From the NCBI RefSeq assembly GCF_009683175.1, contig NZ_WKKW01000002.1:186001-250000 (forward strand): DNA of 64,000 nt, read 5' to 3'. The stretch comes from Bifidobacterium asteroides (GTDB lineage Bacteria > Actinomycetota > Actinomycetes > Actinomycetales > Bifidobacteriaceae). The notes beneath the pieces were generated by a model, which saw nothing but the letters and a program-made list of their open reading frames with translations, made no database searches and was not told the DNA's origin. Shown here piece by piece: positions 52,153 through 63,775 of this stretch (positions are counted from its first letter, which is position 1; the number at the start of each line of letters is the position of its first letter). The translations under genes were made by a program, and so were the position numbers.

Positions 52153-54222
52153 TTATTGGCGTATATCCCATAATTGATTAGCTTGTCGATGAAAAGTATA
52201 AGAAATGAGCCTTGCACCAGGGTTGACGTTAGCCCCACATATGTCGATAGCCTTGTTGTTCAATACACTGCGTATTGAATAGCCTCCTGAATAATGTTGA
52301 AGATACCATAATTGGTTGCTTCTGCCAGTGGAGGGGAACTGAACGACATTACCTTCATCCCCCTGATAACCATATTGAATATCAAGATACAGTCCCGAAT
52401 GAGCAGCTTGAAGAGCAAATTGCCCATTTCCTTTATAAACAAGTATGAATTTTTGGTTATCTCCGCCGTTAGGAGTCCATGTCTGCAAATGTGCGTCAGA
52501 CGCTTGGCTGGCGCCCTCCACATCAAAGCTATTCCCATTGGCAAATCGATTGGTGATACTGTTGGTACCCTGGAAAGCCTCGCTAGCCTGCAAGAGTCTA
52601 AAGGACTGATTCATTCCACCATTGAATTGCCATATCTCCAGCTGCGTCCCGGATGAAGTATTACCGCCAGGTATGTCAAGTGCTGCTGATTTGCCACCAT
52701 TTAATGCCGAAGTGATATAGACAAAACCATCAGGAGCACGGTAAAACCGCCATCGCTGATTTGCCCCACCGTTCTGTGTGTATTGAATGATCTCATTGCC
52801 GTTTTGTGTTGATCCATATCTGACGTCCAAGGCTTTCCCTGAATGTTTCGTAACAATGGAGTAAGTTCCGGATCCTTCGGGCTTTATGTGAAAAAGCTGA
52901 TTCGCACCATCGGTGGGCGCCCAGACCTGAACTGGGAAAGCCTCCGCCTGTGTTCCTCCGGAAATATCCAGGTACTTATCGCCCAAAGAAGATTCGATGT
53001 AGTAATCTCCCTCAACCATATCGGTCAACGCCTCAAGCTGATTCGGGCCATCAACTCCCGAATCAGAATCCTTGACTCCACAAGCACTCAAATCCGTGTT
53101 TACGCCTATACCGCTGATGCGTCCATCATCAGCGTATTGCCAGCAGCGATAGTTAGTGTAAAAATTAAAACCAGGACGACGGCCGTAACTAGCGACCCAA
53201 CTTGTTTTACTTAGTATATCAGGAGAATTCAGCGCCGAATTAAGGTAAGAGACATAAGAATATACAGACAAATTTTGAAATCCAGCATTTTGCAAACAAG
53301 TAAACCAGGCATTAACAATATCTTTGTAAGTGCTTGGCGAACTCGGTGGCACGTGATCTTTCCATACCCACTGCTCAAGATCGTAGTAAATAGGGTAGGT
53401 GAGATCATTCGGACTAATTCCAGCCCGGCGAAGAAGATCCACAATGCTGTTGCCCTCGGCCCGTCCAGTCCCTCCGTCATAGGCGTAAGAATACAGATAG
53501 ATGCCGAACGGGATGCCTAATCGCTTGCATTCGACAATATTCCGCAATGCCTTGCCGTCGAAGCCATTGCCCCAACCCCAGCCAATACGAATAATTGCAC
53601 CTTCTACACCCGAATGGCGGACCTGATCCCAATTAATTGTCCCCTGCCATTGAGATACATCAATTACCCCCTTTGCTTTCTGGGCGAATAAGGAACCATC
53701 AGCTTCAAAAAATGCCGGAGAGCCTGAATATGCACCCCAATATGCCCCATACGAGTTGCCTGCCAACGATGAGGAAATAACCGAACCTGCTTGCGCAGAT
53801 GGACGGAGAGCAGCCGATTTCACCGATTTACCCTTTTCCTCAATATGACGAGTAGTTCTGCCGGGTTTCTCAAGGGACCCCTCACCAAGCGAGGATTCTT
53901 GGCGGCGAGCATCTCCAACCTTGACGGGAATAAAGCTGCGACCGTAGGTTTTTGCGAGTGGGTCAGCCGGCTTGGCAGAGGTCCCAATCAGCTGTTTATC
54001 AGTAACCGAGTGCCCGTTGCTGACAGACTTCAGCGATCCATCTTTTGTAACCGCTAAGTCCTGAGAAACCAAGACGGCGTCATCAGGAATGGACTTCACA
54101 ATAAACTCAGGCACATCTTTATGTTGGTCTACATACCCATCCTGCAGATCAAATGATGAGATTGGCGAAATCAACATAATCAGCCCGGCAAGCAACGTCG
54201 CTACAATAGTTCTTACACCCAT
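52153..54222 (-). CDS. Secreted GH25 muramidase with two ricin-type (QxW) domains
   Basis: A 689-residue exported peptidoglycan hydrolase. Residues 1-~25 (VRTIVATLLAGLIMLISPIS) are a signal peptide. A charged linker leads to the GH25 domain (about 187-390) with VIDVSQWQGTINW, IRIGWGWGNG and YDLEQWVW, which holds the catalytic Asp-x-Glu. The C-terminal ~285 residues contain six repeats ending NQ..., such as GANQRWRF, GMNQSFRL and QANQLWDI, forming two beta-trefoil carbohydrate-binding units. It would cut the cell wall or bind its glycan. It sits beside the glycan cluster and shares its AT-rich composition. Confidence 0.93.
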   Translation of the reverse strand: MGVRTIVATLLAGLIMLISPISSFDLQDGYVDQHKDVPEFIVKSIPDDAVLVSQDLAVTKDGSLKSVSNGHSVTDKQLIGTSAKPADPLAKTYGRSFIPVKVGDARRQESSLGEGSLEKPGRTTRHIEEKGKSVKSAALRPSAQAGSVISSSLAGNSYGAYWGAYSGSPAFFEADGSLFAQKAKGVIDVSQWQGTINWDQVRHSGVEGAIIRIGWGWGNGFDGKALRNIVECKRLGIPFGIYLYSYAYDGGTGRAEGNSIVDLLRRAGISPNDLTYPIYYDLEQWVWKDHVPPSSPSTYKDIVNAWFTCLQNAGFQNLSVYSYVSYLNSALNSPDILSKTSWVASYGRRPGFNFYTNYRCWQYADDGRISGIGVNTDLSACGVKDSDSGVDGPNQLEALTDMVEGDYYIESSLGDKYLDISGGTQAEAFPVQVWAPTDGANQLFHIKPEGSGTYSIVTKHSGKALDVRYGSTQNGNEIIQYTQNGGANQRWRFYRAPDGFVYITSALNGGKSAALDIPGGNTSSGTQLEIWQFNGGMNQSFRLLQASEAFQGTNSITNRFANGNSFDVEGASQASDAHLQTWTPNGGDNQKFILVYKGNGQFALQAAHSGLYLDIQYGYQGDEGNVVQFPSTGRSNQLWYLQHYSGGYSIRSVLNNKAIDICGANVNPGARLISYTFHRQANQLWDIRQ

Positions 54223-54425: not shown

Positions 54426-55139
54426 TTACAAGATGACAGTCTGGATGCGGTCCGCGTCCTTAAGATGAATGGTTTGTTTGGAAGAAAGCTTGTTTTGATT
54501 TCTTTCATCAGCAATGCGCCCGCTCTTCAGGAGATTCAAGCGTATCTGTCCCTGAGGGGCATCCTTGCCCTCCACACGCACAAGACTTCCCGGCACCAAG
54601 CCGATGCGAACCAGGTACCTGAGAGCATTCGAATCCTCGTCGCTGACGCGTTGAACTCGAACCGTTGAGCCGACCGGCACTTCGGATAGCGTACAGGTAG
54701 CAGGAAGTTCAGGCAGAGATCCGCTACCGGTTGGTATGGCATCTCCATGCGGATCCATGGTGGGATGGCCCAGATAGTCGTCGATGCGGTCGACCATCTT
54801 GTCGGAGACGGCGTGCTCAAGGCTGTCCGCCTCCTCATGCACCTCATCCCAGCCGTAACCGAGAACCTGCACCAGGAAGGTCTCCAGCAGTCTGTGGCGC
54901 CGGACCATGGTGACCGCATAGCGACGACCGGTTTCAGTAAGCTCCACCTTGCCGTAAGGCCTATGGGTGACCAGACCGGCATCGACCAGACGACCCAGCG
55001 CGCCCGAGACCGTCGACTGTTTCATGCCCGTCCTTTCGGCCACCGCAGTGGGCTGGACAGGGCCCTGATCCCATTCCTGAAGATCCCAGATGACCTTGAG
55101 ATAATCCTGGGCGCTGGAGGACAGTTCGGCAATTCCCAT
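54426..55139 (-). CDS. mntR: DtxR/MntR-family manganese regulator
   Basis: A 237-residue metal-sensing repressor. The winged helix reads SSSAQDYLKVIWDLQEW...KQSTVSGALGRLVDAGLV, followed by the dimerisation and metal-binding region with MVRRHRLLETFLVQVLGYGWDEVHEEADSLEHAVSD (ligand residues Glu, His). An FeoA/SH3-like C-terminal domain follows (about 165-237, VRVERVSDEDSNALRYLVRIG type). Placement divergent from an Nramp transporter favours a Mn-sensing role over iron. Starts at 55166 or 55220 are possible, but 55139 begins the conserved core. Confidence 0.88.
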   Translation of the reverse strand: MGIAELSSSAQDYLKVIWDLQEWDQGPVQPTAVAERTGMKQSTVSGALGRLVDAGLVTHRPYGKVELTETGRRYAVTMVRRHRLLETFLVQVLGYGWDEVHEEADSLEHAVSDKMVDRIDDYLGHPTMDPHGDAIPTGSGSLPELPATCTLSEVPVGSTVRVQRVSDEDSNALRYLVRIGLVPGSLVRVEGKDAPQGQIRLNLLKSGRIADERNQNKLSSKQTIHLKDADRIQTVIL

Positions 55140-58648: not shown

Positions 58649-58736
58649 GGAGGATTCGCCTAGTGGTCTATGGCGCACGCTTGGAAAGCGTGTTGGGTTC
58701 ACGCCCTCACGAGTTCGAATCTCGTATCCTCCGCCA
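58649..58736 (+). tRNA. tRNA-Ser (anticodon GGA)
   Basis: An 85-nt class II tRNA with encoded CCA. The acceptor GGAGGAT pairs with ATCCTCC, discriminator G. The anticodon loop is CTTGGAAAG with GGA, and a long variable arm follows. The T arm reads GAGTTCGAATCTC. Typical integration target for mobile DNA. Confidence 0.95.
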
Positions 58737-58911: not shown

Positions 58912-61326
58912 TCAGGCCGATTCAACATCGTCTTTCGCAACTGTCGCAGTCTTCTTTGAGCGATTTTTCTGATTAATCAGCTTCGCCAATTCCTTTTCAC
59001 AGTTATGCATGTACCCCAGGCTCTTCTTAAGACCGGAGAGCTCTTTCTTGGTTTCCTTCTTCTCAGCCTTGTCTAGGTTCTTATCTTCAGAACGCATAGA
59101 GAAGACCTCCTGCTGAATTTCCGTTCGTTCAATCTGATCGAGCAAGCCTTGTCGGATCCGTTCAATCGTCTCTGGCCTCATATCAGCTTGAGCGAAGTCG
59201 GATTGGCAAAATGTTAGGAGCTTCGAACATTCGTCGAGGGCAAACGCTCCTTTGGAATCAGTGAGAAGCGAAGCAACAGCAGTTACCCCACTACCACCGA
59301 CCAAACCCAAGACTGCGCCGCCACCAGCGATTATGGCTGTGCCGCCTGCCATACCGAGGCCTCCAGCAGCCAATGCACCACCGCCAACCGCTGCAAGGCT
59401 CGCACTGGTAAGAGCAGCACCAGATAGGCCGGCAACAGCCGACCCGGCAAACAACGGCGCTATGACTGGCGCTAATGTAAAGGCTGCACCTCCCGTAGCA
59501 ACCGCAACCGCGGCAGTTCCCGCAGCACCGACAATTTTTTTGGTTCGGCTACCATTCAATACGCCGGCATTCCTATTCAGCGCCTTAGCGGTCTGCTGCA
59601 CAGGGGATTTATCCGAATCGCCGCTTACATCACGCCATAATTCTTCGAGGATCTTTGAATCAAATTTTGGGCGTTTAGTTCTCTTGATCGAGGAGTCCGG
59701 CCCTCCCTCAGGATTCTCTGACTCCGTTTCAAAACGATATAGGTCATACGGAGCAAACCGCGCAAGTTCAATCAGAACCAATGCTTTCCATGTGTCTCCG
59801 TCCCGCGCAACAAGTTCTTCAATTCTCCGTTTCACTTGCCCGCGATTAAGGAGATCACAGTCATCAGGCAGGTTTTCAGACCACCTGTCAAACCATTTTT
59901 CCTTTTCTCTCCGATCCACTGCCCTACTTCGATCTATATCCTCATAAAGCGCCAACCGCTCTATCGAGAACAATACAGATAGATGCTCCGGCTTCAACGA
60001 GAGCATTTCCATTGTCACCCGACCGGCCGAATCGTCGTTTTGCCGCCGCTGCCTGTGGCTTGCTCTTCGTTCCCATACCGTTTTGACATCCACACCTATT
60101 GCGAAAACCAGACGAGTCACACCTACATAGTTGATTTTCAGCAGGAAGAGATTGCTATCGAATCCCCCTACTAGAATCCCGACCAAGGCGGCCCGAATAG
60201 CAGCATCCGCTAGATCCACTGCAGTAAAGGTAGCCGAAGCAATGGATACCATGCGGACTACTCTGGAATTATTGAATGGAAGGACCACACCCATATCCAG
60301 CTGTGACAGGTCGTCCAAAGAGTCGACTTCATTGTTTTTCATTTCCAGATAAAGATGATGAAGAAAATAGCAGCCCCGTGTCAGGCACTCATTCAGCAAC
60401 ACTGGGAGCGCCTGACGCCCCAGTACATGCACAATTCCGATTTCAGTTCGCAGGTTAAACCTACGAAGGACTTTACGACCTTCATCGTCAACTTGAGCGA
60501 ATAAGGTCCCATTGAACATCTTGGAAAGAAGTTTCCGTAACCCCATGCCGGAATCCATGGCGTTTTTAAACACGGGCAAGGCGGACAATTCCTTAATAAT
60601 AGAAAGAAAAGGCCCAGGTATTCCCGTGCCCTCACCGGGATTCGAACTTGACCCCGACACGTCTGACGCCATGTGAAAGAACCATTGCACCGTGCCTAAG
60701 AACAGCTTTTCGCAGACAGTATCGCCGATCAAACCTTCCTTAAACCAGTGTTCTTCCACCGGGACTGCAATGAAATCTCCGTTCTGATTGGTGCCGTATA
60801 CCTTTCCTGTAAATTGAGTGAGTATCGAGAACACCAATCCTTCAAGGGAGAAGTGGTGAGAAAAGTCTCTGAGATGATGTTGCAAACCGCCGCCAAATTC
60901 GGCCGTGTACTTATCACCAACAAAAGGATATTGATCTTCTAGGAAATGAATGGCATCACGCAGGGACTCCCCTTTAAAACCAGAATGCTGCTTTGCCACC
61001 CAAACCACGAATTCATTGACTTTCTCCGAACCCCACTCGTTCGCCTTGTCCAGAGAGAACTTGCCAACAAAAATCGAATCACATAAACCCGCAACCACTC
61101 CACAAGCCGCAGCGATCTTGTAATCAAGCTGCGCGTCATCTTGCACATGGCCACTTGCAGCATCTTCTTCAATGGATTCCACATAGATTCCATCACCAAA
61201 ATCTTCGGTCGTTTTATCAGCGCCGAATCCAGCCTCTATACCTTTGTCATTAGCAAGCTCCAGCGAATACTCAACAGAGACCAAATCACCACCGTGCCGT
61301 GGCGAAAGCTCCAACTCCCTTGTCAT
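58912..61326 (-). CDS. Unrecognised 804-aa protein with Gly/Ala-zipper segment
   Basis: I do not recognise the function. Residues ~65-430 are a mixed, partly hydrophobic region that includes DYKIAAACGVVAGLCDSIFVG, of a type seen in uncharacterised gut-bacterial proteins. Residues ~440-540 are charged helices. Residues ~597-690 are almost only Gly, Ala, Ser, Leu and Val (SGAALTSASLAAVGGGALA-like), a glycine-zipper stretch that could insert in a membrane as two or more helices. The last ~100 residues are charged coiled coil. ATG 61326 follows GGAGGGAGAGGG and is better than 61353. The gene is less GC-rich than its flanks and lies 3' of tRNA-Ser, divergent from an HNH nuclease. Confidence 0.75.
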   Translation of the reverse strand: MTRELELSPRHGGDLVSVEYSLELANDKGIEAGFGADKTTEDFGDGIYVESIEEDAASGHVQDDAQLDYKIAAACGVVAGLCDSIFVGKFSLDKANEWGSEKVNEFVVWVAKQHSGFKGESLRDAIHFLEDQYPFVGDKYTAEFGGGLQHHLRDFSHHFSLEGLVFSILTQFTGKVYGTNQNGDFIAVPVEEHWFKEGLIGDTVCEKLFLGTVQWFFHMASDVSGSSSNPGEGTGIPGPFLSIIKELSALPVFKNAMDSGMGLRKLLSKMFNGTLFAQVDDEGRKVLRRFNLRTEIGIVHVLGRQALPVLLNECLTRGCYFLHHLYLEMKNNEVDSLDDLSQLDMGVVLPFNNSRVVRMVSIASATFTAVDLADAAIRAALVGILVGGFDSNLFLLKINYVGVTRLVFAIGVDVKTVWERRASHRQRRQNDDSAGRVTMEMLSLKPEHLSVLFSIERLALYEDIDRSRAVDRREKEKWFDRWSENLPDDCDLLNRGQVKRRIEELVARDGDTWKALVLIELARFAPYDLYRFETESENPEGGPDSSIKRTKRPKFDSKILEELWRDVSGDSDKSPVQQTAKALNRNAGVLNGSRTKKIVGAAGTAAVAVATGGAAFTLAPVIAPLFAGSAVAGLSGAALTSASLAAVGGGALAAGGLGMAGGTAIIAGGGAVLGLVGGSGVTAVASLLTDSKGAFALDECSKLLTFCQSDFAQADMRPETIERIRQGLLDQIERTEIQQEVFSMRSEDKNLDKAEKKETKKELSGLKKSLGYMHNCEKELAKLINQKNRSKKTATVAKDDVESA

Positions 61327-61388
61327 CCGTCCCTCTCCCTCCACAGTGCGCATAGGAACAAAGCAATATAGCCAGAATAAAACAGCAC

Positions 61389-62252
61389 TTGGAGCGTCTG
61401 CAAACAGTCAACAGGGTGCTTGAGCCCAGGGAGTGTGACGACAATGGGCTAGACGTACAGCGTCTGGCGTCATTCCTGCATCGCACTCCCGACTCTATTG
61501 CCTTGAAAATCTGGAACATCGCAGCCCATGACGTCAATCGGAGGGCCCAAGGCAAGGCGGGCATGAAGCATGGCAGCAAGCTGGATTCCCAAGTCTGGCA
61601 ATGGTACGCAGAAAATCCTGATGCCTTCATGGCGGAGTGCCTCGATTTGCTCCAACACGCACTCCTGCAAGCCAGCAAACAACACTTCCACCCAGCACCG
61701 TTGGCCTCTGACCGATATTCCCCGCTCGAAACCGCAACAAAAATGCTGCTTGACAAGCCCAATCCCGAAGGCGGCGAGCGCGAAGCGACCACGATTCAGC
61801 GGATCAACCAGTCCTACTTCCGCAATTCACTGCTCTTGAACTACCAGTGCACATGCTGCATCACCGGCATGCAGATACCTTCAATGCTGATTGTCAGCCA
61901 TGTCAAACCATGGAAAGCCTCAACCCCGACCGAGAAAACTGCCGCATCGAACGGCCTGCTGCTCAATGCCCTCCACGACCGAGCCTTTGACCAAGGGCTC
62001 ATCTCCATCGACGACGATTACCACATCATGGTCAACCACGACAAGGTAAGGCACTCACCGATCAACGATCGATGGCTCTCAGCCTTCGAAAACCGAAGAA
62101 TCACGTTGTCGCCGATCAGCAACCCTCGTATGAATTTATCGAGTACCGCCACAAACACATATTGTTCACCGACACCGAAGGCTTCCTGCTCCCCGTATTT
62201 GGAAGCGCTTTTCCCTTCCCTATCGAATTCATGGCCTCACCCTGGGCAATAG
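61389..62252 (+). pseudogene. HNH endonuclease gene, apparently frameshifted near the 3' end
   Basis: The 287-residue frame has an N-terminal part with RTPDSIALKIWNIA and MKHGSKLDSQVW, common in HNH restriction-like nucleases, and an HNH domain at about 150-215: CTCCITGMQIPSMLIVSHVKPW, NGLLLN and LHDRAFDQGL, giving the His-Asn-His set. After ISNP at about 62125 the frame becomes unlike the family. The +1-shifted frame directly encodes YEFIEYRHKHILFT, the expected C-terminus, continuing to 62305. One missing base would explain it. There is no good start: TTG 61389 is the first candidate, and the N-terminus may also be truncated. Active status is uncertain. Confidence 0.65.
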
Positions 62253-62341
62253 TCGTTTTACGTCCGCAGCATTTCCCACTTGCTAGTCAACCGAACAGCA
62301 TCTGAAAGAGACTATCCAGTAAATGCACAAAATTTTTCCTC

Positions 62342-63775
62342 TTACTCGCCCGTCAGTTTGCGCGGCTTGAGGAAGAGAGAGCCGCATAGACCGATTAGGG
62401 CTACGAGCGTGAGGAAGATGAAGGCCCATTGGTAGCCCTGGTCGAGTGCCTGGGCTGACGTGGCTCCGCTGAGACTGCCGCGCTGAGTGCCGATGGTCAC
62501 AATCATCATGGCTGCGGCCGTACCCAGTGAACCGCCCACCTGGCGGACAGTCGAGGCAGCCGCGTTGCCATGGGCCGTGAGTTCTGCGGGCAATGCGTTG
62601 ATGCCCTCGGTGAAGGTGGTCATCATGACCAGCGCCACTCCTGCCAAGCGCAGAGCATAGCAGGAGGCGATCACGATAAGACTGGTAGTAGTGCCGAACC
62701 ATATCATCGGCAAGGTTCCGGCAAGCAGCACCGTGTACCCCAAAAGGGAAATCTTCCTCGCTCCGATTCTTTGATAGATCAGACCAGAGAGGGGGTTGAA
62801 TATGCCCATGACAATGGCTCCTGGCAGCATGACCAGACCAGAAGTGAGCGCGCTTGACCCGCGCGTATTCTGCAAGTACAGGGGAAGCACCAGCTCCACT
62901 CCGACCATGGCAATGTTGCTCAGGGTGCTCAGCAGACTGGTCAGATTGAAGGTGGCATTCATGAAAACACGCAAATTCACCAGCGGAGACTTCAGATGAA
63001 GCTGACGCCGACAGAACAGGATTACTACCAGCACGCCAGCAAGCAGCAATCCCAGGTCAAGCACTGACGCACCACCCGCGTCTCCAATGGCGGACAGGGC
63101 GTACAGAATGAGCCCGAAACCCAGGCAGGAATAAACTACGGAAGGCACGTCCAGCCGAGTTCTCGCCTGGTGGTTGACCGTATAGACCAGGAAGAACGAG
63201 GCCACCAGAATCGCGGCGCTCAAGACAGCAAGCAGCACAAACAAGGCCCTCCAGGACCAGTGCTCCAAAACAAACCCTGAGAGCGTGGGGCCAACCGTCG
63301 GACCCAAGGCCACCACCAGGCCCACCACGCCCAGGGCCACACCGCGCCTATCCGGCGGGAAAAGCAGCAGTACCACATTCTGAATGAAAGGCATCAACGA
63401 TCCGGCTGCCACGGCCTGAATGATTCTGCCCGCCAACAGCAGCGGGAAATGCCCTTCGCAGAAGACACAGACCAGGGAGCCCATCAGGAAAATACCCATC
63501 ATGGCCATGAAGGTGTGCTTGGACCGGAAGTTGGAAAACACCCAAGCCGATACAGGTATCATCAGCCCCACCACCAACAGATAGGAGGTGCTCAGCCATT
63601 GTGCGGTGGATTGGGACACATGGAATTCCGCCATAATGGTAGGCAGAGCATTGTTAAGGAAAGTCTCCGCCATCAAGGCCAGGAAGGCCCCTGCCAAAAG
63701 CGTGCCCACCATCGCAGTGCGATTTCCCTCAGTCCCGCCTTGGCTTCCTTCCCCTTTGCCGCCATCCTCATTCAT
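62342..63775 (-). CDS. MFS drug exporter, DHA2 (EmrB/QacA) type
   Basis: A 477-residue transporter with about 14 predicted helices. The first helix has AGAFLALMAETFLNNALPTIMAEF, the DHA2 pattern, and QSTAQWLSTSYLLVVGLMIPVSAWV is the typical motif after it. The MFS loop motif lies near VALGVVGLVVALGPTVGPTLSG (motif C of antiporters). Substrate unknown; likely a drug or metabolite exporter. A MarR gene ends 62 bp upstream on the same strand and probably regulates it. Confidence 0.9.
   Translation of the reverse strand: MNEDGGKGEGSQGGTEGNRTAMVGTLLAGAFLALMAETFLNNALPTIMAEFHVSQSTAQWLSTSYLLVVGLMIPVSAWVFSNFRSKHTFMAMMGIFLMGSLVCVFCEGHFPLLLAGRIIQAVAAGSLMPFIQNVVLLLFPPDRRGVALGVVGLVVALGPTVGPTLSGFVLEHWSWRALFVLLAVLSAAILVASFFLVYTVNHQARTRLDVPSVVYSCLGFGLILYALSAIGDAGGASVLDLGLLLAGVLVVILFCRRQLHLKSPLVNLRVFMNATFNLTSLLSTLSNIAMVGVELVLPLYLQNTRGSSALTSGLVMLPGAIVMGIFNPLSGLIYQRIGARKISLLGYTVLLAGTLPMIWFGTTTSLIVIASCYALRLAGVALVMMTTFTEGINALPAELTAHGNAAASTVRQVGGSLGTAAAMMIVTIGTQRGSLSGATSAQALDQGYQWAFIFLTLVALIGLCGSLFLKPRKLTGE

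Follow-up and report, generated by a model that had tools for sequence, protein, structure and literature searches.

A single-gene fusion related to the Bunzi and candidate PDC-M09 defence systems beside a tRNA-Ser gene of Bifidobacterium asteroides

Identification of the fused gene

The window analyzed here is a stretch of 64,000 nucleotides of Bifidobacterium asteroides (assembly GCF_009683175.1, contig NZ_WKKW01000002.1, positions 186,001 to 250,000). Judged by profile matches, one of its genes fuses a Bunzi/PDC-M09-type module, lacking TerB, into a single frame. This one-gene form of a known type of defence gene is new and widespread. With a probability of about 0.6, the gene acts on its own in anti-phage defence of the abortive-infection type and spreads horizontally, both Bunzi/PDC-M09-type halves being fused in one polypeptide. 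The defence role of the window gene is well supported by homology and genomic context.

PADLOC matched residues 75-281 of the protein to BnzB (PDLC03834, 4.5e-43), covering model positions 162-375. A second matched stretch of this model was found at 386-488, and its first ~160 positions were left unmatched. Residues 604-796 matched PDC-M09A (9e-17 and 4e-14) as a domain within a larger protein. On the basis of these two matches, component B of Bunzi and component A of PDC-M09 are combined in this protein. The initial annotation had called the protein unrecognised, which is true for Pfam, NCBIfam and PHROGs, where nothing useful was obtained, but not for PADLOC. The PDC-M09B models gave no match in PADLOC at E-values up to 1, and no BnzA or TerB was matched by Pfam or PADLOC in the protein or in the frames of the adjacent HNH gene. 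No description of the one-gene fused form was found in the literature searched.

The gene lies on the minus strand. It follows tRNA-Ser(gga), as the initial annotation stated. The open reading frame at 58912-61353 encodes 813 amino acids (aa) when counted from its first ATG (61353). An inner ATG at 61326 has GGAGGGAGAGGG just upstream, and since the starts of several relatives align there, 804 aa appears to be the likelier length. The 804-aa gene is genuine, has an undisrupted frame and evolves under purifying selection, with ratios of nonsynonymous to synonymous substitution rates (dN/dS) of 0.26, 0.26, 0.20 and 0.21 against the copies in genomes G003, G019, G014 and G022, respectively; the G022 copy carries a single stop close to its end. 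The closest named relatives among the matches listed are from Bifidobacterium sp. 7101, B. mellis and B. polysaccharolyticum, all bee-gut species. The low guanine-plus-cytosine content first remarked on is present (49.7% in the gene, 57.9% in the window), yet it is hardly distinctive, as about 10% of 2.4-kb windows are equally low.

Comparison with known systems

That the family protects against phage is based on published studies of Bunzi. Bunzi is said to be composed of BnzA and BnzB, as reported by Millman et al. in 2022. A 2026 review (PMC12926258) places Bunzi among the systems of unknown mechanism, and a published table (PMC10952713) lists TerB for Shango and Bunzi. The N-terminal half of the window protein is a BnzB homologue as in Bunzi, but neither BnzA nor a TerB domain is present at this locus, and the BnzB part is fused to a glycine-zipper tail. 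PDC-M09, a candidate system of PADLOC, is similar in that its A component matches the C-terminal third of the protein, and the two-gene relatives also pair BnzB with PDC-M09A. The window form differs from it in being one gene instead of two and in having no PDC-M09B match; PDC-M09B models match some of the split relatives, only near the C-terminal ends of those proteins. The fusion links a published system to a candidate one.

In a Vibrio plasmid (L284), full-length BnzA (3.8e-177) adjoins BnzB (7.6e-178). A BnzA relative in locus L080 has a TerB match, and the BnzA-type proteins of Vibrio and Lactococcus have no Pfam match at 0.01. The C-terminal half of BnzA, which contains a hydrophobic stretch, showed a weak likeness to PDC-M09A (0.0014; hhalign 28.9% and 66.7%). 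This likeness suggests, without proving it, that BnzB is partnered by a Gly/Ala membrane segment in every form. Genome G596 has a second type of fusion (L083:7675-9612, 645 aa). It is also a one-gene form with a BnzB part, but the order is opposite: a weak TerB match, below the Pfam cut-off, precedes the BnzB part and takes the place of the PDC-M09A tail.

Tentatively, Bunzi, PDC-M09 and the fusions might form one superfamily, its common core being a BnzB sensor whose fold is new and all-helical, whose His/Asp site is kept or lost as a set, and which controls a glycine-zipper membrane effector. TerB would then be an optional add-on and the window gene the minimal one-protein form.

Structure and conserved residues

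The B domain region (residues 63-600, 73 sequences) is predicted to be all-helical, with a mean AlphaFold predicted local distance difference test score (pLDDT) of 85.4, and no solved fold matched the B-domain model. Comparison of the domain with the YdjM membrane hydrolases (PF04307), picked on a likeness of motifs, gave an hhalign probability of 0.2% (E 0.3), which lends no support to homology. Of the 48 fused and 34 split rows of the alignment, 43 and 31, respectively, retain each of H159, H160 and H166; H227 is retained in 43 and 32, and D231 in 45 and 31. Two of the misses among fused rows are alignment gaps. The remaining losses fall nearly all in the same rows, namely L130-L132 (fused) and L064, L065 and L161 (split). 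The histidines are lost together in these rows, except that L065 keeps H227. That the residues disappeared jointly twice, once in a fused and once in a split lineage, points to one functional site, and it also shows that the family can do without this site.

The Gly/Ala-rich segment of about 95 residues and the tail noticed earlier were both confirmed. Among the 96 residues of the segment, 49 are Gly or Ala and 3 are charged, and a helical tail follows. The segment is hydrophobic and nearly free of charge, and has low confidence in the full structure model.

Fused and two-gene forms

A pattern scan of 84,980 species genomes gave at least 595 pattern matches and at least 120 relatives, of which 80 were kept for counts. 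These comprise 45 loci with an intact fused gene of 749-864 aa, 29 with two genes separated by -28 to +28 nucleotides and six others (L105, L114, L124, L133, L135 and L146), with the frame interrupted in most. The scan patterns sat in the glycine-zipper region, hence BnzB genes without a glycine zipper were not detectable and the ratio of fused to split forms is biased.

The BnzB-profile search is blind to that region and gave a fairer sample. Of 189 family genomes it matched 22, of which 16 carry the fused form, 4 the split form and 2 degraded copies, and a gene order fixed in all bifidobacteria as core genes, against which the initial annotation had asked its proposal to be weighed, was therefore not seen. 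In all four split genomes, a BnzB frame of ~445-487 aa has a separate PDC-M09A-type glycine-zipper gene directly downstream. Seven of 396 phylum genomes matched; among them G658 and G568 have a BnzA-type gene adjoining BnzB, and G596 has BnzB behind the weak TerB match within one frame.

Separate, abutting genes for the two parts are found in B. pseudolongum, bacilli, clostridia, one Lactiplantibacillus plasmid and one gut phage. Five split pairs scanned with PADLOC matched BnzB at 1.8e-106 to 8.2e-137 and PDC-M09A at 1.8e-13 to 3.7e-89. Profile comparison of the fused tail with the 29 split glycine-zipper genes gave 99.1% probability over 58 columns. In a tree of 82 B domains (48 fused and 34 split rows), only two label changes are needed. 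The fused rows cluster together and include one split row, L124; its glycine-zipper frame was called on the opposite strand, and it may be a broken fusion. A Lachnospiraceae genome with a fused gene also encodes, 2.5 kb away, another BnzB relative, a distant one of 562 aa (L095:12656-14344). Tools which require two separate genes may miss the one-gene form.

Insertion site and horizontal transfer

tRNA-Ser(gga) is present in all 27 genus genomes, and 26 sites were mapped. The fused gene is full length or nearly so in five of the 27, within ~12 kb of tRNA-Ser(GGA). In the window genome (G000), G019 and G014 it lies between the tRNA and the MFS gene, which is the exporter gene reported beyond the locus (62342-63775 in the window). 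The same interval measures only 475-1045 bp and lacks the fused gene in six genus genomes (G004, G007, G008, G011, G013 and G018), the absence in sister genomes that the initial annotation had proposed to look for. G003 and G022 have a phage-type integrase after the tRNA, and the 3' end of the tRNA recurs as a copy ~9 kb farther on (22/24 and 26/26 bp). The fused gene starts 0.2 kb beyond this copy in G003 and 2.5 kb beyond it in G022, after a Schlafen AlbA_2-type gene. Integrases with repeats of 14-23 bp are also found at the tRNA in G010, G005 and G006. In G000, the stretch between window position 55000 and a point 8.5 kb beyond the window end yielded only a weak 22-bp inverted match as a repeat. 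With integrases and tRNA 3'-end repeats in relatives and matches to defence families, the earlier idea of a mobile, defence-type gene with a membrane-insertion-like part at a tRNA is supported. Locus L232 (G010) contains two phage-type integrases and two tRNA-Ser 3'-end copies (22-23 bp), suggesting tandem integrated elements at the same tRNA.

Ureibacillus and Enterococcus have 2766 bp in common at 98.7%, comprising the two genes and ~230 bp around them. Olsenella and Bifidobacterium pullorum have 4.1 kb in common at 89%, covering the fused gene and the next gene, and a Clostridia genome and Olsenella 4.3 kb at 83%. These stretches are direct sequence-level evidence for horizontal transfer between distant hosts.

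Among 72,556 plasmid records 469 matched, each at under 60% identity and not one over more than 80% of the query, and one of 50,697 phage records matched. Bunzi is often plasmid-borne in Salmonella according to a published account (PMC11305592), which fits the mobility of the window-type gene. The human-gut phage NatCom_3357 carries a BnzB and PDC-M09A pair (L285:3294-5847) a few kb from holin and endolysin genes. An Escherichia coli IncHI2 plasmid encodes a distant BnzB relative of ~460 aa (L286:5118-7008), preceded by a short protein annotated as a membrane protein and close to a trypsin-like protease; matches at the same level are seen in many enterobacterial plasmids.

Proposed mode of action

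The N-terminal helical BnzB domain most likely would sense infection or keep the protein inactive. Upon a trigger, the Gly/Ala-rich segment, presented by the coiled-coil tail, may insert or oligomerise in the cell membrane. The cell would then be depolarised or arrested in an abortive-infection type of response, and the neighbouring HNH nuclease would have no working part in it. The fusion of both halves in one mobile gene hints that the membrane-inserting half is the acting part, and a natural single-gene version which drops TerB and keeps BnzB and the glycine zipper suggests which two parts matter. It also offers one gene for structural and mutagenesis work.

Alternatively, the same family might protect without suicide, by blocking phage DNA entry while anchored in the membrane (superinfection exclusion), in which case the glycine zipper would be an anchor and not a pore. 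Carriage of the two-gene form by a phage whose record has lysis genes nearby, and of relatives by plasmids, is consistent with this. However, the ~95-residue, charge-poor segment exceeds the length of a simple anchor, the B domain is both sizeable and highly conserved, and superinfection exclusion is considered unlikely. The abortive-infection reading is preferred.

Neighbouring defence genes

Genes near the fused copies matched 293 PADLOC families (145 of 164 near genes scanned) and genes farther away matched 61 (114 of 114 scanned), both being overlapping family counts. The Pfam matches of near genes include GmrSD, N6 methylase, MmeI methylase, HerA and a Schlafen-type helicase. In three close loci, one gene family is situated 15 bp upstream; three near genes match GmrSD and are taken to be this family. 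In G816, HNH is followed by an FRG-domain protein (PDC-S15) and then by the fused gene. Around the window locus, Pfam names catalase, Nramp and MFS.

It could be argued that the gene encodes a non-defence envelope or stress protein lying in variable DNA by chance, as its defence function is a prediction from sequence and TerB was named for tellurite resistance. Against this stand the patchy presence, the mobility, the carriage by plasmids and phage and the restriction-type neighbours, which make such a role improbable compared with defence.

The HNH remnant

The initial annotation described an HNH nuclease gene divergent from the fused gene, but this gene did not prove to be intact. Compared with G003, G022 and G009, the window copy lacks 177-178 bp at the 5' end including their start codon, and it has a frameshift near the 3' end, with the last ~20 model positions in another frame. 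The G003 copy is also frameshifted, and open copies are present in G022, G009 and G816. The remnant matches the HNH type II restriction enzyme of PADLOC (PDLC03546, 3e-131), from which the window copy differs by its truncation and frameshift. Against the NCBIfam phosphorothioated-DNA restriction endonuclease the truncated remnant scores 51 bits, under the curated cut-off of 180.

The further proposal that the nuclease and the membrane protein act as one module draws on adjacency. HNH adjoins the fused gene in G000, G003 and G022 and a remnant of it in G009, and lies 2.7 kb off in G816. However, G019 and G014 lack HNH although the fused gene occupies the same site in them, the copies in the window and G003 are broken, and only 5 of the 16 family genomes with a fused gene have any HNH match, which in G777 lies elsewhere in the genome. 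Conversely, 15 of the 20 HNH-matching genomes among the 189 lack an intact fused gene. HNH is also not among the 25 Pfam families listed for the 145 near genes, a listing from which an HNH piece in L088 was excluded. Joint action is thus highly improbable. HNH is a passenger in decay that shares the tRNA hot spot with the fused gene, and not a fixed or working partner.

Features of the locus

Table 1. Coordinates of the fused gene, its parts and adjacent features in the window.
Feature	Position	Strand	Evidence
Fused BnzB/PDC-M09A-like protein, 804 aa (813 from ATG 61353)	58912..61326	-	PADLOC; open reading frame; dN/dS 0.20-0.26 against four relatives
B domain, residues 70-440 of 813, predicted all-helical BnzB homologue	60034..61146	-	PADLOC; conserved H159, H160, H166, H227, D231; AlphaFold
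Middle helical region, residues 441-600	59554..60033	-	Present in 45 intact fused homologues; modelled together with B domain
Gly/Ala-rich glycine-zipper-like hydrophobic segment, residues 605-700	59254..59541	-	Composition; PDC-M09A match 604-796
C-terminal helical/coiled-coil tail, residues 701-813	58915..59253	-	PADLOC; structure model
HNH restriction-endonuclease remnant, HNH_2 motif present	61413..62190 (approximate limits)	+	Profile matches; alignment with relatives
tRNA-Ser(gga), integration hot spot in genus	58649..58736	+	tRNA call; mapped sites across genus

Elsewhere in the window, a gene of lower guanine-plus-cytosine content at 52153-54222 encodes a GH25 lysozyme with ricin-type lectin repeats and adjoins a DtxR-type regulator.
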